Below the pieces are notes generated by a model that was not told where the DNA came from, did no database searches, and was given only the letters and a program-made list of their open reading frames with translations. Positions 10,719 to 29,397 of a DNA stretch of 34,289 nucleotides are shown here, piece after piece. How positions within the stretch are numbered: the first letter of the stretch is position 1; each line of letters starts with the position of its first letter. The DNA lies in contig JAJYVX010000009.1 of assembly GCA_021791795.1 (NCBI GenBank), positions 1 through 34,289 of the forward strand. The letters are read 5' to 3'. The DNA is from Actinomycetes bacterium (lineage in GTDB: Bacteria; Actinomycetota; Acidimicrobiia; Acidimicrobiales; Bog-793). The translations under genes and the position numbers were made by a program.

Positions 10719-11354
10719 ATGACACTCGGGAGCCGGTTCGCGTCGACCATGGATGCCGCGCGCCGCGGGGACGAGGCAGCCCTGGCGGAGCTGTACATGG
10801 ACGTCAACCCGATCCTCCTCCGCTTCCTCCGCGCCCGAGAGCCCGGCGAAGCGGAGGACTTGGCATCAGAGGTGTGGCTGCGGCTGTCCCGCCTACTTCC
10901 CTCGTTCAAAGGAGACGAGCCCGGATGGTTCGGGCTGGTGTTCCTCGTGGCTCGGCGGTGCCTGAACGACCATTGGAAGCGACAACGTCGGCGGAAGACG
11001 GAGCCGGTGGCCATTGACGATCTCATCCACCATCCCGGTCCCGCCGATGTCGAGGCCGAGGGACTCGAGTCGGTCTCGACGGCGGAGGCGATCCGTTTCG
11101 TCACCGGCCAACTGAACCGAGACCAAGCCGACGTGCTGCTGCTGCGCCTGCTCGTAGGACTCAGCGTGGAGGAGGTCGCGGCGGCCATCGGCAGGCGACC
11201 GGGTCACGTGAGAGTTCTCCAGCACCGCGCCGTCGCCGCGCTGCGGGCGCGGCTGGCGGCTGGCGAGGAGGGCGCGCGAAGCGTAGCCACCGTGAGCTTC
11301 GCGGCGGAGCACCTCGGGACAGATGCTGCGCCGACCCTCGGAGGGCTGAAGTGA
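10719..11354 (+). CDS. ECF-type RNA polymerase sigma factor
   Basis: A 211-residue alternative sigma factor with sigma-70 regions 2 and 4 only. Region 2 covers roughly residues 10-80, with AALAELYMDVNPILLRFLRA, EAEDLASEVWLRLSRLL and the -10 recognition helix around WFGLVFLVARRCLNDHWKRQRRR. Region 4 (about 125-185) reads LNRDQADVLLLRLLVGLSVEEVAAAIGRRPGHVRVLQHRAVAALRARL, with a normal helix-turn-helix. The ATG at 10719 is preferred over an in-frame GTG at 10587 because homology to region 2 begins just after it and a GGGG run lies 4 nt upstream. The stop overlaps the GTG start of the next gene by 4 nt (GTGA), the usual arrangement for a sigma factor and its membrane partner. The target regulon is not evident. 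Confidence 0.88.
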   Translation: MTLGSRFASTMDAARRGDEAALAELYMDVNPILLRFLRAREPGEAEDLASEVWLRLSRLLPSFKGDEPGWFGLVFLVARRCLNDHWKRQRRRKTEPVAIDDLIHHPGPADVEAEGLESVSTAEAIRFVTGQLNRDQADVLLLRLLVGLSVEEVAAAIGRRPGHVRVLQHRAVAALRARLAAGEEGARSVATVSFAAEHLGTDAAPTLGGLK

Positions 11355-12262
11355 GCGCCATGCGAAGGCGGCGCGACGCCATCGACGAGATGCTGCGGGC
11401 GACGGGGCGCATGGGAGGTGCGGACGGTCTTGAGCCGGTGGCGGACATGCTCCGTGCACTCGCCGCTCCTTCGCCTCTCCTCTCGACAAAAGCCGGAGGC
11501 GTGACCCTCGGGCCGCCTGAGGTTGCCCTCGGGCCGCTCGACGTCGCCCTCATCGGCGAGGTCGCTCGCTCGGTGAGGTCGAGGGGGCGCAGCTCCTATC
11601 TCGACCGCCTCAGGATCGCCGCGGCGACGGCGACGGCCAAGGGCCTCATCATCGTCGGCGTGTTGATCGGCGGTTCGGTCGCGGCTGCCGCCACCGGCAG
11701 CCTGCCTGCGCCGATACAACATGCCGTCGCCCGGGCTCTCGCCGGGCTCGGGATTCGCATACCGGGTGACGTCGCGGGAGCACCGTCTCGAGGGCGAGCG
11801 AGCATCGGCAGTGCTCTCGCGGGCGCGGACACTACGCAGGTGCCTGCCAGCACGTCCGCCCCTGCCGGAAGAAGAGCACTGGCCAACCGGCCTACCGAGA
11901 GCCGACACGGCCGAAAAGGCCCGAGAGGCCGCGGCAGCGGCTCGTCGCCGGGCAGCGGCCACACGAGGCGTGGAACCGGCGGAGGGCGGTCGCAGCACGG
12001 CGGCAAGGGCAAGGGGCACTCGCAAGGCCGCGGCAAGGGCAAGGGGCACTCGCACGGGCGCGGCAAGGGCAAGGGGCACTCGCACGGCCGCGGCAAGGGG
12101 CACTCGCACGGTCATGGCAATGGGCCGGGCACGGGGCCGGGGCCGGGGCAGGGGCCGGGCAACGGGCACGGCAAGAGGCCAGCCGACGAGCCGGGGCAGG
12201 GCGATGGACCGGGGCAGGAACAACGCCCATCCAAGCCTGTGCACGGCCGCCCGAGCGTCTGA
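11351..12262 (+). CDS. Single-pass membrane protein with Gly/Lys/His repeat tail, probable anti-sigma partner
   Basis: A 303-residue protein not assignable to a named family. The N-terminal 90 residues are predicted cytoplasmic (IDEMLRATGRMGG, then an Arg-rich RSVRSRGRSSYLDRLR). One membrane helix follows at about 96-115 (AKGLIIVGVLIGGSVAAAAT), then LPAPIQHAVARALAGLGIRIP, a juxtamembrane motif often seen in actinobacterial proteins encoded after ECF sigma genes. From about residue 180 to the end the chain is low-complexity, Gly/Ser/Arg-rich, then GKGKGHSHGR repeats and Gly/Pro runs, predicted outside the membrane. The translational overlap with the ECF gene suggests it controls that sigma factor, as an anti-sigma factor or sensor. 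The His-rich tail could bind divalent metal or polyanions (inference). No classical zinc anti-sigma motif (HxxxCxxC) is visible. Confidence 0.7.
   Translation: MSAMRRRRDAIDEMLRATGRMGGADGLEPVADMLRALAAPSPLLSTKAGGVTLGPPEVALGPLDVALIGEVARSVRSRGRSSYLDRLRIAAATATAKGLIIVGVLIGGSVAAAATGSLPAPIQHAVARALAGLGIRIPGDVAGAPSRGRASIGSALAGADTTQVPASTSAPAGRRALANRPTESRHGRKGPRGRGSGSSPGSGHTRRGTGGGRSQHGGKGKGHSQGRGKGKGHSHGRGKGKGHSHGRGKGHSHGHGNGPGTGPGPGQGPGNGHGKRPADEPGQGDGPGQEQRPSKPVHGRPSV
12001..12114 (+). repeat. 30-bp in-frame tandem repeat encoding GKGKGHSxGR
   Basis: Three complete 30-bp units start at 12001, 12031 and 12061, and a 24-bp fourth unit starts at 12091, lacking one GGCAAG. Units differ at only a few bases (CAAGGC versus CACGGG/CACGGC). 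Both the 30-bp unit and the 6-bp change keep the reading frame, so the repeat number can vary without breaking the protein. Confidence 0.85.
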
Positions 12263-15773: not shown

Positions 15774-16136
15774 ATGCCGACCGCCAGGGAACGACTCATC
15801 CGACACGCTCTCGCTTACCCGGGCGCCTGGGAGGACCACCCGTGGGGCGAGACCGTCGTCAAGGTCGGGAAGAAGGTCTTCCTCTTCGCCGGCGCAGATG
15901 AGTCGGCGCCGGCACGAGTCTCTCTGAAGCTGCCCGAGTCCGCCGAGGAAGCGCTCGGTTTCGATGGGGTGGAGCCGACCGCCTACGGGCTCGGGCGGTC
16001 GAGCTGGGTGACCGTACCCCTCCGGCGAGCGCCTAGAGGTCTGCTCGAGGACTGGATCGAGGAGAGCTACCGAGCGGTGGCGCCGAAGGCGATGATCTCA
16101 GCTCTCGAGGCTGTGAGAGCCCCGGAACGGCACTGA
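15774..16136 (+). CDS. MmcQ/YjbR-family protein
   Basis: A 120-residue protein of the YjbR/MmcQ family, small cytoplasmic proteins with a CyaY-like fold that are often annotated as DNA-binding and have poorly defined roles. Visible family features are the N-terminal ALAYPGAWEDHPWGETVVKVGKKVFLF block, VSLKLPESAEEAL and the C-terminal WVTVPLRRAPRGLLEDWIEESYRAVAPK. The ATG at 15774 is chosen because GGAG lies about 6 nt upstream; the frame extends back into the tRNA, which is not plausible as coding. The gene starts 72 bp after the tRNA-Asn. Its 3' 104 bp overlap the 3' end of the convergent MMPL transporter gene. Confidence 0.85.
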   Translation: MPTARERLIRHALAYPGAWEDHPWGETVVKVGKKVFLFAGADESAPARVSLKLPESAEEALGFDGVEPTAYGLGRSSWVTVPLRRAPRGLLEDWIEESYRAVAPKAMISALEAVRAPERH

Positions 16137-18475
16137 AGCCGTCGCTCTCCCCGCCCTGAGGAGCAGGCGTCGCGCCGTTCGGATGTCCCCCACCGTTCAT
16201 CTGGGCGACCTGGAGAAGAGCTCCCGGACCGGGGTCCTTCGTGCCCGGATAACCCATGCCTGCCTCGATGTGCCTCGGCCACCAGTTCCACTTGCCGAGA
16301 AGCGCGACGGTCGAGGGTACGAGAAGGGTTCGGACGAGGAACGTGTCCATGAGGATCCCCACCGCCAGGCCGAAGCCGATGTCGCGGACCTGACTGCCGC
16401 CCGGGCCCCTCGATCCGGCGATGGCGAGCACGGCGAAGCTGCCTGCCAGCACGAGCCCCGCCGAGGTGATCGTCGGCCCCGAAAGGCCGACGGCCCTCAC
16501 CACCGCCTCCCGGAGCGAGTGGTCGTGCGCCTCCTCCCTGATGCGCGTCATGACGAGGATGTTGTAGTCCTCCCCCAACGCGAGCAGGAAGATGAACATG
16601 AGGAACGGTAAGAGGAAGGTGAGCCCCTGGTCGCCTGCGATCCAGATGAAGACGATCGAGGCGAGCCCGAGCGCGGCGAGGTAGCTCAGGACGACGCTCG
16701 CGATGAGGTACAAGGGGGCGACGGCGCTCCTCAGCACCAGCGCGAGCAGGATCGCGATGGCGAGGACAGCGAGCGGGATGATGTGGATGAGGTCGCCGTT
16801 CGACGTGGACGAGATGTCGTAGAGCGCCGGGGCCTCACCAGCCACCCCGCTCGCCGAGGCACCGGTGGCACGCGCCGCGCCTGAGACGAGCGAGCGCAGC
16901 GCCGGCACCTCCTCGAGGGCTGCGGTCGAGCCCGGGTCGCCCACGGACAGACCCGCCTGGAACTGGATGACCCGGCCGTTGGCGCTCACGAACTGCGACT
17001 CGCCGCGGTACGAGACGTAGACGAGGAGTGGGATCTTCAGCCCCGGTGGAGGAAGCGGTGGCAGCAGCTTCGGCGGGCCGAGCGCGTGGTGGAGCTGCTC
17101 GAGCTGAGCGGCGGTGAACGGGATCGTCGAGGGGTTGAGTGGCCCGAGCAGTGTCTTGAAGTAGCCCGAAGCCTCGAGCCGAGCCTGGTCCGTCAGGAGT
17201 ACGGAGGGGTCGTTCCAGACGGAGTGGGGGTAGACGAAGACCAGGTTCGTCGGGTTGGCGCTCGACTGGGGGAAGTACCTGGCGAGCTCGGCGTCGGCCG
17301 CCGCCGCCGTCGTGTGGGCGGGTGCGCTCGTCGCGCCGCCGAAGCCCGATGGGGCGTAGAGGACAGCACCTGCCGCGAGGCCGCCGAAGACGACGAGGCC
17401 GGCCACGAGCGTCGGGACGGGCCGGCTGACCACGCGGGCCGCCACCCTGCCCCACAGCCCGCCGTGGCGCTGGCCCTTGCGGGGCATGGAGGGCCAGAAG
17501 ACGGCACGACCGAGTATCGCCAGCAGCGCAGGCAGCAACGTGAGACCGGCGACGAGCATCGTCGCGATTCCGATGGCAAGCGGGATCCCCAGGTCGTGAT
17601 AGATGCCGAACGTCGCCAGCAGAAGCGAGAGGAGGGCGAGTATGACCGTCCCCGCAGAGGCCGTGATCGACTCGCCAACTCGTGACACCGCGAGTGACAC
17701 AGCCGAGTGTGGGTCGAGGCCGTTGCGTATGCCTTCTCGGACCCTGTAGACGAGGAAGAGCCCGTAGTCCGTGCCGGCGCCGAGGACGATCACGATGAGG
17801 AGGAGTTGCGTCACCTCCGAGATCTTCAACCCGTGCGCCCCGAGCTCGCCGATGAACCCTCCCGAGAGGGCGAGCACCACCACAGGAGGGAGCAGGGTGA
17901 CGAAGGGTGCCAGCACCGACCTGAAGATGAGCAGCAGGAGCACGACGATGAAGATGACCGACAGGCCCTGGGTCTGTGTCCCGGTCGTCTTCGAAGCGGC
18001 GTTCTGGGCCACGGAGTCGACGACCTGGCCTGCGAGGTAGAGATGAAGCCCGGGCGGTGCCCGGAGGCTGTTGAGCGTGTGCTGCAGGGCGTTCACCGTC
18101 GCGGTCGCCTTCTGCGGGCTGTAGGGTCGGCGAGGGCACGACGGGAAGCACCCGCCTCACGTTCTGCACCTGCGATGCGAGCTTGGACTCGTGCTGCAGG
18201 AGGGCTATGTCGCTCGGCCCGAGTGTGTGCCCGGGGCGGACGGCGACCACCACTATGGGTACGAGGCTCTCCTTGCCGATGAGCGGCCGAGCCAGGTTGG
18301 CGGCCTTCACGTCTGGAGCGTTCGAAGGGAGAAACTGCGTGTTGTCGTTGGTCACCTGGCTTGCCAGTGAAGGCAGTGCCTTCATGGCAACACCGGTCCC
18401 GACCAGCCAAATGACGAGTATCAGCCAGCGGTATTTGACGGTGGCGCGGCCGAGCGCGCTGAAGAGAGCATGCAT
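16033..18475 (-). pseudogene. MMPL/RND-family transporter gene broken by a frameshift
   Basis: The product would be a 12-helix MMPL-type exporter of the RND superfamily (lipid, drug or siderophore export, proton-driven). The 5' part, 18475 to about 18130, reads MHALFSALGRATVKYRWLIL, then FLPSNAPDVKAANLARPLIG and RRVLPVVPSPT. The frame then shifts by one base, and the rest (about 18127 to 16033) continues as YSPQKATATVNALQHTLNSL. That part holds the transporter core with the family's membrane motifs GAGTDYGLFLVYRVREGI (about 17700-17800) and ALGEDYNILVMTRIREEA (about 16540-16600). Total length, 2443 nt, is one base more than a multiple of three, consistent with a single-base insertion near 18120-18135. 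The rest of the coding sequence is intact, so this is either a recent mutation or a sequencing error. It follows the ABC operon by 75 bp. Confidence 0.8.
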
Positions 18476-23475: not shown

Positions 23476-26400
23476 TCAATGGAAGTCACTCGAGCGTACC
23501 GAGAGGAGGTCGGCCCTCACGTCCTCCAAGTGTTCCGCCAGGAGGTTCGCAGCCGATGGCGCGTCCGGATGCGCCGAGATCGCACGCTCGAGCCGGCCGC
23601 GGACGAGCATGACCACGGCTGAGCGGGCGACCTTCCGGTAGCGGACCCAGAGCCCCGCGGAGCAGATGACGTTGAGGAGGCCGGTCTCGTCCTCGAGGTT
23701 GATGAACGTCGTCCCACCTGCCGTCGCTGGCCGTTGGCGGTGGGTGACGATGCCGGCAACCGTGACACGCTCCCCGTCGGACATCCCAAGGATGGCCGAG
23801 ATGGGCACCGCCCCCCTCCCTTCGAGATCGGCACGGAGGAACGACATCGGCGAGCTGTCCGGCGAGAGACCGAGCGTCCGAAGGTCGGCCGACATCTCCT
23901 CGAGCAGATCCATCGCCGGGAGCGGTGGGGCGACCACCCCCGGCACGGTTCCCGGCAAGCGGTCCGGCGTCGACTCCGAGGCCGCGCCCGCCGCCCAGAG
24001 CGCCTCCCGCCTCGGCATGAGGCACGCCAGAGCACCTGCAGTCGCCAGGGCTTCGAGCGCCTTCCGCCCGGCGCCCGACCTGCGCGCCACCTCCTCGATG
24101 CTCTCGTACGGCTTCTCCGAGGCGATCCTCTCGGCGAGGTCCTCCCCGACCCCCTTCACCGATCCGATCCCGAGCCGGACGGCCGGAGCGCGGTCCGCCT
24201 GCGAGAGCGGTTCCAACGAAGCGCTCGCTGCGCTCCTGTTCACATCGGGTGCGCGGACTACGACACCGTGCCTGCGAGCGTCGGCCACGAGAGTGTGCGG
24301 CGCCCAGAAGCCCATCGGTTGGGAGTTGAGCAGTGCCGCCAAGAAACCCGCCGGGTACCTCAACTTGAGCCACGCGCTCACATACACGAGGTAGGCGAAC
24401 GAGACCGAATGGCTCTCAGGGAAGCCGAAGTTGGCGAAGGCACGCAATTTGTCCCAGATCTCCTCGGCCGTCTCGCCCGTGATCCCGTGCTCGGCCATGC
24501 CGCCGAAGAGGCGCTCCCGGAGGCGTTCCATGCGGGCGGCCGACCGCTTCGAGCCCATCGCTTGGCGGAGCTGGTCGGCCTCCGAGGCGGAGAAACCGGC
24601 CGCGTCGATCGCCATCTGCATGAGCTGCTCCTGGAAGAGCGGCACGCCGAGCGTCTTCTTCAAGCTCTTCTCGAAGACGGGATGGATGTAGGTGACGGGC
24701 TCCTCGCCGTTGCGCCGGCGGATGTACGGGTGGACCGAACCCCCCTGTATCGGCCCCGGCCGTATGAGGGCCACCTCGACGACGAGATCGTAGAAGTCCT
24801 TCGGCTTGAGCCTGGGCAGGGTCGCCATCTGTGCTCTCGACTCGACCTGGAAGACACCAACCGAGTCGCCCCGGCAGAGCATCTCGTAGACCTCTTTCTC
24901 CTGTGGGATGTCGGCGAGGTCGAGCTCGGTGCCGTGGTAGGAGCGCACGGTGTCGACGGCGCGGTGGATCGCCTCGAGCATCCCGAGCCCGAGGAGGTCG
25001 AACTTGACGAGGCCGACCGTCGCGCAGTCGTCCTTGTCCCACTGGAGGACGGTCCGGCCCTCCATGCGCGCCCACTCGACGGGGCAGACCTCGGCGACCG
25101 GGCGGTCGCAGATGACCATCCCGCCGGGATGGATGCCGAGATGGCGAGGGAAGCCTTCGAGCTCGGTGGCGGTCGCGAGCACCTGAAGGGGGATGCCGAG
25201 CTCGGCGACCGCCTCGGCTGCCCTTCCCGGGAGCGTCCAGGGCTGCGAGCCCGGTTCCCGGGCGACGTCGTCCCGGCCGGGGCGGGCGAGCATGCGGCGC
25301 CCAGCCGTGGAGGAGTGGGCGGGGCGGGAGGCTTCGTGGCGCTGTAGCTCACGGGCGACGGCACCCGACCACCACGACCAGTGGCCGCTGCGCTCGCCGG
25401 TGTTGACGTGGCGTCGGCCGCCGAGTGCGCTCCAGCCCTCGATCTGCTTGGACCAGGCTTCCACCTGCCCCTCCGGGTGGCCGAACGCCTTCCCCGTGTC
25501 CCTTATGGCAGAACGTGCCCTGTAGGTGACGACCACGGCGACGAGGGCAGCGCACTCTCGCCCGTAGCGCTCGTAGACGTACTGGATGACCTCCTCTCTC
25601 CGGCCGCTCTCTATGTCGACGTCGATGTCGGGCGGGCCGTCCCGTTCCGGCGAGAGGAAGCGTTCGAAGAGGAGGCCGAGCTTCACGGCATCCGCGTTCG
25701 TTATGCCGAGGACGAAGCAGACGGCCGAGCTGGCGGCCGACCCTCTCCCTTGGCAGTAGATGTCGTTGCGGCGGCAGAACTCGACGATGTCCCAGACGAC
25801 GAGGAAGTAGCCGGGGAAGCCCAGTTGCTCGATCATGTCGAGCTCGTGGTCGAGCTGCTGCCAGGCACCTCTCACTTTCTCGGCGTCGCGGGTGCCGTAG
25901 CGGCGGACCGCCCTCTCGTAGACGAGGGAGCGTAGGAAGGACATCTCCGTCTCGCCTGGTGGGAGGGGGAAGTCGGGGAGCTTCGGGGCGACGAGCTTCA
26001 GGTCGAAGGCGCTCGCCTGCCCCAGCTCCGCCGCCGTCTCCACCGCGCCGGGATACCTGGCGAAGCGCCTCAGTTGCTCGCCTCCCGCACGGAGGTGTGC
26101 CATCCCGGCGGCGGGCAGGTAGCCGTCGAGGTCGTCGAGCGGCATACCTGACCGGATCGCCTGGACGACCGTCGCGAGGCGGCGGTCGGCCGGAGTGGCG
26201 TAGTGGACGATGTTCGTGGCGACGATGCCGAGGTCGCGCCGGACGGCGAGCTCGGCGAGAGCGTCGTTGCGGGCGGAGTCGAGTGGATCGCCGTGGTCCC
26301 ACAGCTCCATGAACACGTTCTCGCGCCCGAAGTAGGCGACTAGGCGGTCGAGCTCGCGGGCCGCAGCCGCCGGCCCGGCCTCGAGGAGCGCCGCAGGGAC

Positions 26401-26871
26401 TGCCCCCTTCCGGCAGCCGGTGAGGACGCTCAGGTGGCCGCCGGAAAGCTCGGCGATGCGGCCGAGGTGGTGGGCCGGCCGCCCCTTCTCCTTACCGGCG
26501 AGGTTCCCCTCGCTGAGGGCGCGGGCAAGCCTTCTGTAGCCGAGCGGGTCCTTCGCGAGGACGAGGAGGTGTGCACCTCCCGGATCTGGGACCCGCGTAC
26601 GGGAAGGGGCCTTCCCTGCGGCACTCCCGCCTCCGCCGGCCCCACCCTGTGGCCCGAGTGTCAGCTCGGCTCCGTAGACGGCCCTCGTCCCGGACTCTCG
26701 TGTCGCCTCGAAGAAACGGACCACCCCGTAGAGCCCGTCGTGGTCCGTGAGCGCCAGTGCCTCGAGGCCGAGCCGGGATGCTTCGGCGACGAGCTCTTCG
26801 GGATGCGATGCGCCGTCGAGGAAGCTGAAGCTCGAGTGGCAGTGCAACTCGGCGTAGGGGACGGTGCCCAT
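23476..26871 (-). CDS. dnaE2: Error-prone DNA polymerase III alpha subunit DnaE2 (ImuC)
   Basis: A C-family polymerase for translesion synthesis and damage-induced mutagenesis, usually acting with ImuA'/ImuB and the beta clamp. The 1131-residue protein begins with a PHP domain (YAELHCHSSFSFLDGASHPEEL, LALTDHDGLYG, AVYGAEL) typical of DnaE2. The polymerase core has GRGSAASSAVCFVLGITNAD, the catalytic aspartates in PDIDVDIE (Asp416 and Asp418) and KFDLLGLGMLEA (Asp625), then VGVFQVESRAQM and FQEQLMQMAIDAAGFS. A helix-hairpin-helix and OB-fold follow, ending near residue 1090. An insert of about 70 residues (about 481-550, Arg/Ser/Gly-rich) sits before ELEGFPRHLGIHPGGMV and makes the protein longer than usual. 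A LexA-type palindrome precedes the gene. There is no imuA/imuB nearby. The ATG at 26871 has no ribosome binding site but a -10 element 7 nt upstream. Confidence 0.95.
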   Translation of the reverse strand: MGTVPYAELHCHSSFSFLDGASHPEELVAEASRLGLEALALTDHDGLYGVVRFFEATRESGTRAVYGAELTLGPQGGAGGGGSAAGKAPSRTRVPDPGGAHLLVLAKDPLGYRRLARALSEGNLAGKEKGRPAHHLGRIAELSGGHLSVLTGCRKGAVPAALLEAGPAAAARELDRLVAYFGRENVFMELWDHGDPLDSARNDALAELAVRRDLGIVATNIVHYATPADRRLATVVQAIRSGMPLDDLDGYLPAAGMAHLRAGGEQLRRFARYPGAVETAAELGQASAFDLKLVAPKLPDFPLPPGETEMSFLRSLVYERAVRRYGTRDAEKVRGAWQQLDHELDMIEQLGFPGYFLVVWDIVEFCRRNDIYCQGRGSAASSAVCFVLGITNADAVKLGLLFERFLSPERDGPPDIDVDIESGRREEVIQYVYERYGRECAALVAVVVTYRARSAIRDTGKAFGHPEGQVEAWSKQIEGWSALGGRRHVNTGERSGHWSWWSGAVARELQRHEASRPAHSSTAGRRMLARPGRDDVAREPGSQPWTLPGRAAEAVAELGIPLQVLATATELEGFPRHLGIHPGGMVICDRPVAEVCPVEWARMEGRTVLQWDKDDCATVGLVKFDLLGLGMLEAIHRAVDTVRSYHGTELDLADIPQEKEVYEMLCRGDSVGVFQVESRAQMATLPRLKPKDFYDLVVEVALIRPGPIQGGSVHPYIRRRNGEEPVTYIHPVFEKSLKKTLGVPLFQEQLMQMAIDAAGFSASEADQLRQAMGSKRSAARMERLRERLFGGMAEHGITGETAEEIWDKLRAFANFGFPESHSVSFAYLVYVSAWLKLRYPAGFLAALLNSQPMGFWAPHTLVADARRHGVVVRAPDVNRSAASASLEPLSQADRAPAVRLGIGSVKGVGEDLAERIASEKPYESIEEVARRSGAGRKALEALATAGALACLMPRREALWAAGAASESTPDRLPGTVPGVVAPPLPAMDLLEEMSADLRTLGLSPDSSPMSFLRADLEGRGAVPISAILGMSDGERVTVAGIVTHRQRPATAGGTTFINLEDETGLLNVICSAGLWVRYRKVARSAVVMLVRGRLERAISAHPDAPSAANLLAEHLEDVRADLLSVRSSDFH

Positions 26872-26960: not shown

Positions 26961-27911
26961 TCAGAGCTCGAGCGTCGCTCCTCGCCCCAGGCGGAGGGGT
27001 TGCACCGGCCGGATCCTGCGGAGCTTGCGCCGCAACAAGAACGGGACCAGGTAGCGCCCGGTCGCTGCCAGAGTGGCGGCGGGATCGCTGCGGAACGTCT
27101 CGGCGAAGGCTGCACGGGCCGGGCCGTGTCGTCGCCGGAGCAGCAGGGCGACCGCCAGACGGAGCTCGTGCCAGGCACGGATCTCGGCTTGGCGCATGTC
27201 GCTGAGACCCGATGTCGGCAATTCCCTCGCGAGCATCCGTCGCATGCTCGCCCGATATCGCTCGCCGTCCTTGCTGTAGCTGTTCGGGCTGTCCCTGTAG
27301 CGCACGAGGGCGGCTTCAAGATTGACCACGTCGCATTGCCGGGTGCACCTGAGCCAGAGATCCCAATCCTCCGTGCCGTCGAGCGCAGGATCGAAGCCCC
27401 CCGTCTTCTCCAGCACATCTGTTCGGACCAGCACGGTCGACGTCTGGAAGCGGTTGAGAAGGAGCAGATCGAGCGCCCGGAGCCGGTAGGCCACTTTGGG
27501 TCTCGACCCGGTGGTGCCGCCCGGCGCGGCACCGGGTGGGACCCAGTTGCAGGCGACAAGGCCGAGTGTGGGGAGGAGGTGGGAGGCGCGGAGCTGGGAC
27601 TCCAGCTTGGCCGGCTCCCATGTGTCGTCGGCGTCGAGGAAGGCCACCCACTCCTTCTCGGCGAGACGCCACCCGGTGTTCCGTGCCGCGGCCGGCCCGG
27701 AGTTCTCCTGCCGGATCAGGCGTGCAGCCGGGAAGTGCTCTGCGACGAGATCGGCCGAGCGGTCCTTCGATCCGTCGTCCACGACTACGACCGCTTCGGG
27801 GGGGCGTGTCTGACGCTCGACCGAGCGCAGGGCCTGGAGCACGGTGTCCTCGTTGCCGCAGACTGGCATGACGACCGTGACGCCCCCGGTTCTCGGGTGG
27901 CTCGCGGGCAC
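26961..27911 (-). CDS. Glycosyltransferase family 2
   Basis: A 316-residue inverting GT-A glycosyltransferase predicted to use a nucleotide sugar. The N-terminal catalytic domain shows VTVVMPVCGNEDTVLQALRSVE, the nucleotide-binding VVVVDDGSKDRS, QENSGPAAARNTGWRLA, and the metal-binding FLDADDTWEP (DxD). The acceptor-side region contains GGFDPALDGTEDWDLWLRC, where the ED pair supplies the likely catalytic base. The C-terminal 80 residues are basic and helical, without a clear membrane helix. The GTG at 27911 lies 1 bp after the stop of the MurE-like gene, so the pair is an operon and the enzyme probably acts on a cell-envelope polymer (inference). The acceptor is unknown. Confidence 0.9.
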   Translation of the reverse strand: MPASHPRTGGVTVVMPVCGNEDTVLQALRSVERQTRPPEAVVVVDDGSKDRSADLVAEHFPAARLIRQENSGPAAARNTGWRLAEKEWVAFLDADDTWEPAKLESQLRASHLLPTLGLVACNWVPPGAAPGGTTGSRPKVAYRLRALDLLLLNRFQTSTVLVRTDVLEKTGGFDPALDGTEDWDLWLRCTRQCDVVNLEAALVRYRDSPNSYSKDGERYRASMRRMLARELPTSGLSDMRQAEIRAWHELRLAVALLLRRRHGPARAAFAETFRSDPAATLAATGRYLVPFLLRRKLRRIRPVQPLRLGRGATLEL

Positions 27912-27912
27912 C

Positions 27913-29397
27913 TCAGGCTCTCGCCGCTACCCGCTCTTGTCCACGTACGCGCAGCCGCCTGAGAGCCCTCCGTGCGACCTCCCGGTCGTCCAGCTTCACG
28001 ACCCGGTCCTTCACGTGCTGGGCCGTCTCGTGCCCCCTGCCGGTGATGAGCACGACATCCCCACTCGACGACTCCTCTATCGCCCGCTGGATCGACCTCG
28101 CTCGGTCGGGGTGCGCCACAAGGCGACGCGGCGGCGATCCGAGCATGCCGAGACGGACCTCCTCGATGATGTGGGTCGCCTCCTCCTGCCCGGCACTGTC
28201 TGTCGTGAGGAAGACCTCGTCGGCGAGAGCGGCGGCACGCCCGAGGTCCTGGCGCTTGATCCTGTCCCGGCCGCCTCTCGCCCCGAGCACGACACGGACG
28301 GTCCCACCATCGACGGCAAGGTCTCTCGCCGTGCGGACGCGCTCCACCACCGCGTCGGGCGTATGGGCATAGTCGATCACGACGTGGAAGGGCTGGCCCT
28401 CGTCGACGAGCTCGAACCGGCCGGGGACGGGCGGCGCCACGGCGAGGCCGGCGGCGGCGTCGGCCGGGTCTATGCCGAGATGGGTCGAAGCCAGGTAAGC
28501 GGCCGCGATGTTCGACGCGTTGCAGGACCCGGTGACCGGGGCGACGAGGTCCACCGACGCTCCCTCCAGGTGGACCCGAACGGACGTCTGCTGCAGGCGG
28601 CTGGCAAGGAGCTCGACCCTCACGTCTGCCTCCGGGCTGGCGCCGAAGGTCACGACCGGGACCCGGGCCTGTGCCGCGAGCCGGCGGCCCCACTCGTCGT
28701 CGACGCAGACGATCCCACGCTCGCTCCGGCACGGCTCGAACAGCAGCGCCTTCGAGGCGTAGTACTGCTCGATCGTTCCGTGATAGTCGAGGTGCTCCGC
28801 CGTGAGGTTCATGAACACGGCCAACTTGAACCGCGTGCCTTCGATCCGGTGCTGCTCGAGCGCGTGGGAGGAGACCTCGATCACGGCCGCCCTCGCATCG
28901 GCCGCGAGTGCTTCGGCCAGGAGCCGCTGCAAGTCGGGACCCTGCGGGGTCGTGAGCATCGAACGCGTGCGGGAGAGACCTGTACGCGTCTCGATCGTCC
29001 CGATGAGCGCCGAAGGCACGGAGGCGTGGGAGAGGACGGCGTCGAGAAGGTGCGCGGTCGTCGTCTTCCCGTTCGTACCGGTGATGCCGACCACGTCGAG
29101 GCGCGATGACGGCCGCCCGTGGACCTCGGCCGCGAGCAACCCGATGACCCGGCGGACCGACGGCACGACAAGCTGTGGCAGATCGACTGCCATCGGTCGC
29201 TCGACGACCACTCCGGAGGCACCCCTAGCGACGGCTTCGCCTATGAAGTCGTGGCCGTCTTTCATGCCCCCCCGCAGCGCGCAGTACACGAAGGAGGGGC
29301 CGACCTCCCGGCTGTCGTGGGTCACGTCGACCACCGGGCAGTCGCCTTCGAGGCGACTGCCCTCGACGAGCTTTGCTAGGTCGGCGAGTGTCGTCAC
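27913..29397 (-). CDS. MurE-like Mur ligase without the DNPR substrate motif
   Basis: A 494-residue ATP-dependent amide ligase most like UDP-MurNAc-L-Ala-D-Glu ligase MurE. N-terminal UDP-binding domain: DVTHDSREVGPSFVYCALRGG. Central ATPase domain: P-loop GITGTNGKTTT (about 104-114), the TTPQGPDL loop, IEVSSHALEQHRIEGTRF, and MNLTAEHLDYHGTIEQYYASKALLF with the lysine (Lys216) normally carbamylated. C-terminal domain: PGRFELV, IDYAHTPDAVVERV, GARGGRDRIKRQDL, and ITGRGHE near the end. The motif that recognises the incoming amino acid, usually DNPR for meso-diaminopimelate, is here TTDSAGQEE (residues 398-406). This could therefore be the canonical MurE of a lineage with altered specificity, or a second Mur ligase. 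No other mur or fts genes flank it. The GTG start at 29397 has GAGAGAG upstream. Confidence 0.82.
   Translation of the reverse strand: MTTLADLAKLVEGSRLEGDCPVVDVTHDSREVGPSFVYCALRGGMKDGHDFIGEAVARGASGVVVERPMAVDLPQLVVPSVRRVIGLLAAEVHGRPSSRLDVVGITGTNGKTTTAHLLDAVLSHASVPSALIGTIETRTGLSRTRSMLTTPQGPDLQRLLAEALAADARAAVIEVSSHALEQHRIEGTRFKLAVFMNLTAEHLDYHGTIEQYYASKALLFEPCRSERGIVCVDDEWGRRLAAQARVPVVTFGASPEADVRVELLASRLQQTSVRVHLEGASVDLVAPVTGSCNASNIAAAYLASTHLGIDPADAAAGLAVAPPVPGRFELVDEGQPFHVVIDYAHTPDAVVERVRTARDLAVDGGTVRVVLGARGGRDRIKRQDLGRAAALADEVFLTTDSAGQEEATHIIEEVRLGMLGSPPRRLVAHPDRARSIQRAIEESSSGDVVLITGRGHETAQHVKDRVVKLDDREVARRALRRLRVRGQERVAARA

Follow-up and report, generated by a model that had tools for sequence, protein, structure and literature searches.

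The stretch analysed here, referred to as the window, comprises 34,289 nucleotides on one contig (C44) of an actinobacterial genome of 3.45 Mb in 351 contigs. It carries on its minus strand a gene for a MurE-like ligase and, directly downstream, a gene for a family 2 glycosyltransferase (GT2); the two are called the module below. The ligase belongs to a clade of 31 sequences, which was compared with 106 ordinary MurEs. The features of both genes are listed with the residue numbers of the window proteins, and with E. coli MurE numbering where indicated.

27913..29397, minus strand: MurE-like ligase, 494 amino acids, GTG start, with Mur_ligase N, M and C domains.
29056..29088, minus strand: P-loop GITGTNGKTTT, ligase residues 104-114.
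28750..28752, minus strand: K216, counterpart of the carbamylated K225 of E. coli MurE; lysine in 31/31 clade members and 106/106 ordinary MurEs.
28264..28284, minus strand: GARGGRD loop, ligase residues 372-378; R374 is clade-specific (E. coli G387) and R377 is conserved (E. coli R390).
28180..28206, minus strand: TTDSAGQEE at the DNPR site, ligase residues 398-406; D400 is kept and G403 stands in place of Arg417 (E. coli).
28027..28041, minus strand: GRGHE, ligase residues 453-457; G453 and E457 are kept (E. coli G465 and E469), and R454 is clade-specific (K466 in ordinary MurE).
26961..27911, minus strand: GT2 glycosyltransferase, 316 amino acids, GTG start 1 nucleotide past the ligase TGA.
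27624..27638, minus strand: LDADD (DxD nucleotide-sugar/metal motif), GT2 residues 92-96; L92, D93, D95 and D96 are invariant in 25 partners.
27363..27371, minus strand: E-D-W, putative catalytic acidic pair, GT2 residues 181-183, invariant in 25 partners; the role is predicted from the GT2 family.

To judge from its motifs, the window protein is apparently a full-length and catalytically intact Mur ligase. All three Mur ligase Pfam domains were found, and the protein scored above the cut-off of the murE subfamily model TIGR01085 (408.7 bits; cut-off 257.3); the MurE-like P-loop, carbamylated lysine and domain order described in a first-pass annotation made from the letters of this DNA are thus borne out by GITGTNGKTTT, K216 and these matches. 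Its score also exceeded the cut-off of NF001126, the model for diaminopimelate (DAP) ligases (406.2 bits; cut-off 373), so that automatic annotation would probably name it a second DAP ligase, and lay far below that of NF010628, the L-Lys equivalog (281.6 bits; cut-off 536). The AlphaFold2 model had a MurE fold with a predicted local distance difference test (pLDDT) score of 94.5, and its top PDB matches were the MurE enzymes of M. tuberculosis, M. thermoresistibile, S. aureus and E. coli.

The main departure from ordinary MurE lies in the amino-acid binding domain. Nucleotides 28206-28180 encode exactly residues 398-406, which align on DNPR, with D400-S401-A402-G403 over D414-N415-P416-R417 of E. 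coli MurE; the replacement of DNPR by TTDSAGQEE, as proposed in the first-pass annotation, therefore stands, and the Arg that binds meso-DAP is lost. In MurE of the meso-DAP type, two DNPR residues (Asn and Arg) hold the distal carboxylate of bound meso-DAP, while the Asp of the motif and a downstream Glu bind its distal amine (PMC3829189). The L-Lys MurE of S. aureus has the motif DNPA and keeps the Asp and the Glu; its A409R variant gained no meso-DAP activity, so that specificity is not fixed by the motif on its own, and its N407A variant was inactive (PMC3829189). In the window ligase the counterparts of the distal-amine Asp and Glu (D400, E457) are kept and the DNPR Arg is absent (G403).

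A tree was built from an alignment of relatives taken from the window's family and order and from a genome collection. In it the 31 clade sequences, nearly all with D-(S/N/D)-P-G for DNPR, fell on one side of a branch with a Shimodaira-Hasegawa-like approximate likelihood ratio test (SH-aLRT) support of 100, and of 99 once the alignment had been stripped of the columns surrounding the motif, the GARG and GRGHE loops and the DH motif. Clade members are 41-62% identical to the window protein, in which the SPGDED of the clade has drifted to SAGQEE. In E. coli MurE numbering, position 417 is Gly in 28/31 clade members and Arg in 104/106 ordinary MurEs, and position 387 is Arg in 29/31 and Gly in 104/106, respectively. 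This Gly/Arg swap is, by the alignment, the main sequence novelty of the clade. Asn415 is lost in 22/31 members, being Ser or Asp (S401 in the window), and further substitutions are K466 to R and D210 to E, with others at a few packing positions; V309A and L313A are conserved changes as well. The clade retains S29, T158, T159, S185, Q191 (25/31), R193, K225, R390, D414, G465 and E469, which were read against the E. coli MurE contact residues of its UniProt entry. The counterpart of R390, presumably the alpha-carboxylate contact, is kept in 31/31 members, and the MurE-type residues for the UDP-N-acetylmuramoyl-dipeptide (UDP-MurNAc-dipeptide) in 28-31/31, apart from Q191. These residues suggest that the clade ligase likely does not use meso-DAP, and that the new Arg387 may bind another carboxylate; L-Lys as its substrate would be a guess.

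The clade is nearly confined to the window's actinobacterial order, which includes Acidimicrobium ferrooxidans. Among 346 genomes searched across the phylum, no Gly-type motif from outside this order was seen in the 30 best matches read; a wide spread of the type through the phylum was accordingly rejected. Diverged members occur in two Saccharopolyspora genomes (L037 and L042:4358-7404), where a DDPG/DDPC protein, which has neither a GT2 beside it nor the Arg387 change, is encoded divergently to an argininosuccinate synthase gene. A phage origin was rejected, as a scan of viral contigs returned no relative.

The window ligase is a paralogue, separate from the organism's own DNPR MurE. A genome search located the latter at C57:30237-31550; it is 42% identical to the window ligase, reads DNPRHEDP at the motif and shares its contig with a MurD-like ligase, murB and ftsZ, that is, with the division and cell wall (dcw) cluster. 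The first-pass annotation had placed the window gene outside such a cluster and had named a second, DNPR-bearing murE within one as the mark of a paralogue; both points hold, the dcw copy being on C57 and the window gene on C44. That the window ligase is the only murE of the genome, the finding cited there as telling against the idea, is ruled out by the DNPR copy. A canonical MurE was likewise matched in 28/28 of the module-bearing genomes examined (only as partial copies in G083 and G156). The canonical copies read had DNPR, with DNAR or DNTR in three, and a GCGG or GAGG loop.

The pair is also present in a cultured organism. On the single contig of G065, taken as the iron-oxidising A. ferrooxidans ICP, the ligase is encoded at 1901137-1902600 (minus strand), the GT2 at 1902692-1903570 (plus strand) and a canonical DNPR MurE at 1304585-1305964. 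The murein of A. ferrooxidans contains meso-DAP (PMC3035218). Given this murein and the canonical enzyme, the extra ligase need not supply meso-DAP, and it probably has a job other than the DAP wall.

The partner protein matched PF00535 (96.2 bits) and stayed under every NCBIfam cut-off. Its model (pLDDT 89.4) was structurally matched by envelope glycosyltransferases such as CgT, WrtF, TarS and TarP. The C-terminus is helical and basic (PFL..R..RR), which would be compatible with binding at the membrane surface.

Clustering of the neighbours of the 31 ligase loci identified the GT2 as the sole widely conserved neighbour, and no other conserved partner was found across lineages in this comparison. 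A complete GT2 was adjacent in 25/31 loci, co-directional in 18, divergent in 6 and convergent in 1, with differing surroundings. Fusions of ligase and GT2, 838 and 849 amino acids long, are encoded in G030 and G022, two genomes that belong to different genera. A further fusion (L044:5908-7935) has a shortened GT2 domain that has lost the DxD; its ligase part seems intact, although GRGPE stands in place of GRGHE. Five loci were without a GT2, namely two at contig ends (L120 and L157), the two from Saccharopolyspora and G069. Among 298 genomes of the window's order, the ligase clade was present in 23, and the GT2 was found in 22 of these versus 0/275 of the others at that score (in G208 it is split in two and lies where another contig begins). 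Fisher's test gave 2e-32, a value overstated by the shared ancestry of the genomes. Within the window's family the GT2 accompanied the ligase in 7/8 genomes and was found in 0/27 without it; one genome of the same genus lacks both. Taken together, the reshuffled gene order, the shared pattern of presence and absence and the fusions argue strongly that the two proteins function jointly, so that the coupling to a GT2, which the first-pass annotation had noted at this locus, extends far beyond adjacency. As no other neighbour is conserved, the pair most likely acts on intermediates that every cell has.

Other neighbours were considered and set aside. In the window, a dnaE2 gene for an error-prone DNA polymerase (23476-26871, minus strand; 1410 bits to PRK05672) starts 90 bp past the GT2. 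It was ruled out as a functional partner, since a 63%-identical relative (L114) has a different gene at this place, the neighbours vary in other genomes and relatives do not share this gene order. The pair is situated, in loci of the Acidimicrobiaceae type (e.g. L149), between argS-lysA-hom-thrC-rho and a cytochrome/cox block; these respiration and amino-acid genes flank it in one family only, and the link was not used as evidence. The same applies to L117:9772-17904, where ligase and GT2 are followed by a pyruvate carboxylase gene and divergent dapE- and dapD-like genes, with dapD/dapE about 4 kb off.

Two further observations concern the window itself. An MMPL-like transporter gene (16033-18475, minus strand) has its N-terminal part (16835-18475) and the rest (16033-18096) in different frames, an apparent frameshift or assembly error. 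On the plus strand, an open reading frame of 303 amino acids (11351-12262) beside a sigma-factor-like gene has a long low-complexity Gly/Lys/His/Ser/Arg tail (GKGKGHSHGRGKGKGHS repeats).

Mur ligases with altered specificity or dedicated partners are known, including L-Lys MurE, MurT/GatD, cyanophycin synthetase, the pseudomurein ligases and plastid PAP11. Canonical meso-DAP MurE (E. coli; M. tuberculosis, 2WTZ/2XJA) shares with the window ligase the domain order, P-loop, carbamylated Lys and the residues for UDP-MurNAc-dipeptide and alpha-carboxylate, and the M. tuberculosis enzyme is 37-38% identical in structural alignment. Unlike it, the window ligase has DNPR replaced and Arg at 387, lies outside the dcw cluster, is an extra copy and is tied to a GT2. 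The S. aureus enzyme (4C12/4C13, DNPA) resembles it in the small residue at the DNPR Arg and in the distal-amine Asp and Glu, and gave the best TM-score of the ligase model (0.91-0.92), a value that may stem from the closed conformation in the crystal. However, identity is 29%, the motif Asn is mostly lost in the clade and NF010628 stays below cut-off; the S. aureus protein is moreover the wall enzyme itself, whereas the window ligase is an additional copy. Thermotoga maritima D/L-Lys MurE (4BUB, DDPR; 31% identity) has the MurE fold and a variant motif, but retains the Arg, and its residue at position 387 is Gly. Plastid PAP11 (8w9z, 8r5o) is a repurposed MurE homologue; unlike the window ligase, it is a subunit of a eukaryotic plastid RNA polymerase without a glycosyltransferase partner. 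MurT/GatD likewise joins a Mur ligase homologue to one dedicated partner gene and modifies peptidoglycan precursors (PMC3266927), but its partner is a glutamine amidotransferase instead of a GT2, and the window ligase has the MurE N-terminal domain and scores as MurE. The GT2 envelope enzymes TuaG, TarS/TarP, CgT and WrtF share the GT-A fold, the DxD and the acidic catalytic residues with the window-type GT2, which differs in being adjacent to or fused with a Mur ligase. The open-access literature searched, which lacks most subscription journals, yielded no description of a MurE paralogue linked or fused to a GT2.

We tentatively favour, as something close to an even call, a duplicated MurE with changed amino-acid specificity that works with one glycosyltransferase. 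Since D414, E469 and R390 are kept, the substrate would most likely be an alpha-amino acid with a distal amine, either one resembling Lys or Orn, or a DAP isomer that the new Arg would hold. The GT2 would next add a sugar to the same intermediate or to its lipid-linked product, which would give a muropeptide-type component of the envelope, either minor or modified, alongside the usual meso-DAP wall. It is possible, and clearly more speculative, that the two enzymes, sometimes as one bifunctional protein, form a dedicated pathway to a second, glycosylated precursor of muropeptide type whose third residue is not DAP, and that this precursor goes into a hitherto undescribed polymer of the envelope or modification of the wall in the window's order. 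Several points weigh against a duplicated MurE of this kind. The S. aureus variants and the missing Asn indicate a rearranged pocket, from whose motif the amino acid cannot be read; the UDP-MurNAc-dipeptide acceptor is predicted solely from conserved residues; the fold matches of the modelled GT2 are generic envelope glycosyltransferases and fix neither donor nor acceptor; and the Saccharopolyspora members and G069, a genome of the window's order, have a ligase without a nearby GT2, so that the ligase may work alone.

A doubtful but serious alternative is that the ligase uses another acceptor, such as a different UDP-sugar or a GT2-made glycoside, and that the two enzymes together make a secreted glycoconjugate, or a polymer resembling a capsule, that carries amino-acid substituents. 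The capsule and teichoic-acid type of the GT2 matches (CgT, TarS, TarP, WrtF), the joining of both domains in one chain, the patchy presence of the pair inside a family and the conserved changes beyond the amino-acid pocket (V309A, L313A, D210E) are in its favour, but the MurNAc-dipeptide residues are retained at the frequencies given above, whereas an aligned MurF domain lacks the TT and SSHAL..R motifs, and no flippase, polymerase or export genes were seen conserved beside the pair. We consider it rather improbable that the ligase still adds meso-DAP or LL-DAP, with Arg387 standing in for Arg417, as a conditional back-up MurE (e.g. under acid stress) whose link to the GT2 is regulatory or decorates the same precursor. 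The Arg gained at 387 lies in the same domain as the one lost at 417, D414, E469 and R390 remain, NF001126 scores above its cut-off, and the neighbourhood of the pair includes lysA in one family and dapD/dapE in another genus; against this, Asn415 is lost too in most members, Arg417 is kept in nearly all ordinary MurEs and in the canonical copies of module genomes, and a GT2 inherited together with the ligase would be superfluous for a simple back-up. That an ordinary MurE is drifting or decaying without a distinct function is very improbable: the window motif is less conserved than that of the clade (SAGQEE versus SPGDED) and the fused GT2 domain of L044 lacks the DxD, but the catalytic residues are invariant over the 31 sequences, the substitutions are consistent clade-wide and the partnership with an intact GT2 is near-strict.

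MurE is regarded as the sole gatekeeper for the third residue of the stem peptide and ranks among the most conserved bacterial enzymes. A second MurE that is present throughout a clade, has lost its grip on DAP and is tied firmly to a glycosyltransferase implies a step in envelope building of which we found no description, and the pair is present in a cultured type strain whose genome is closed.
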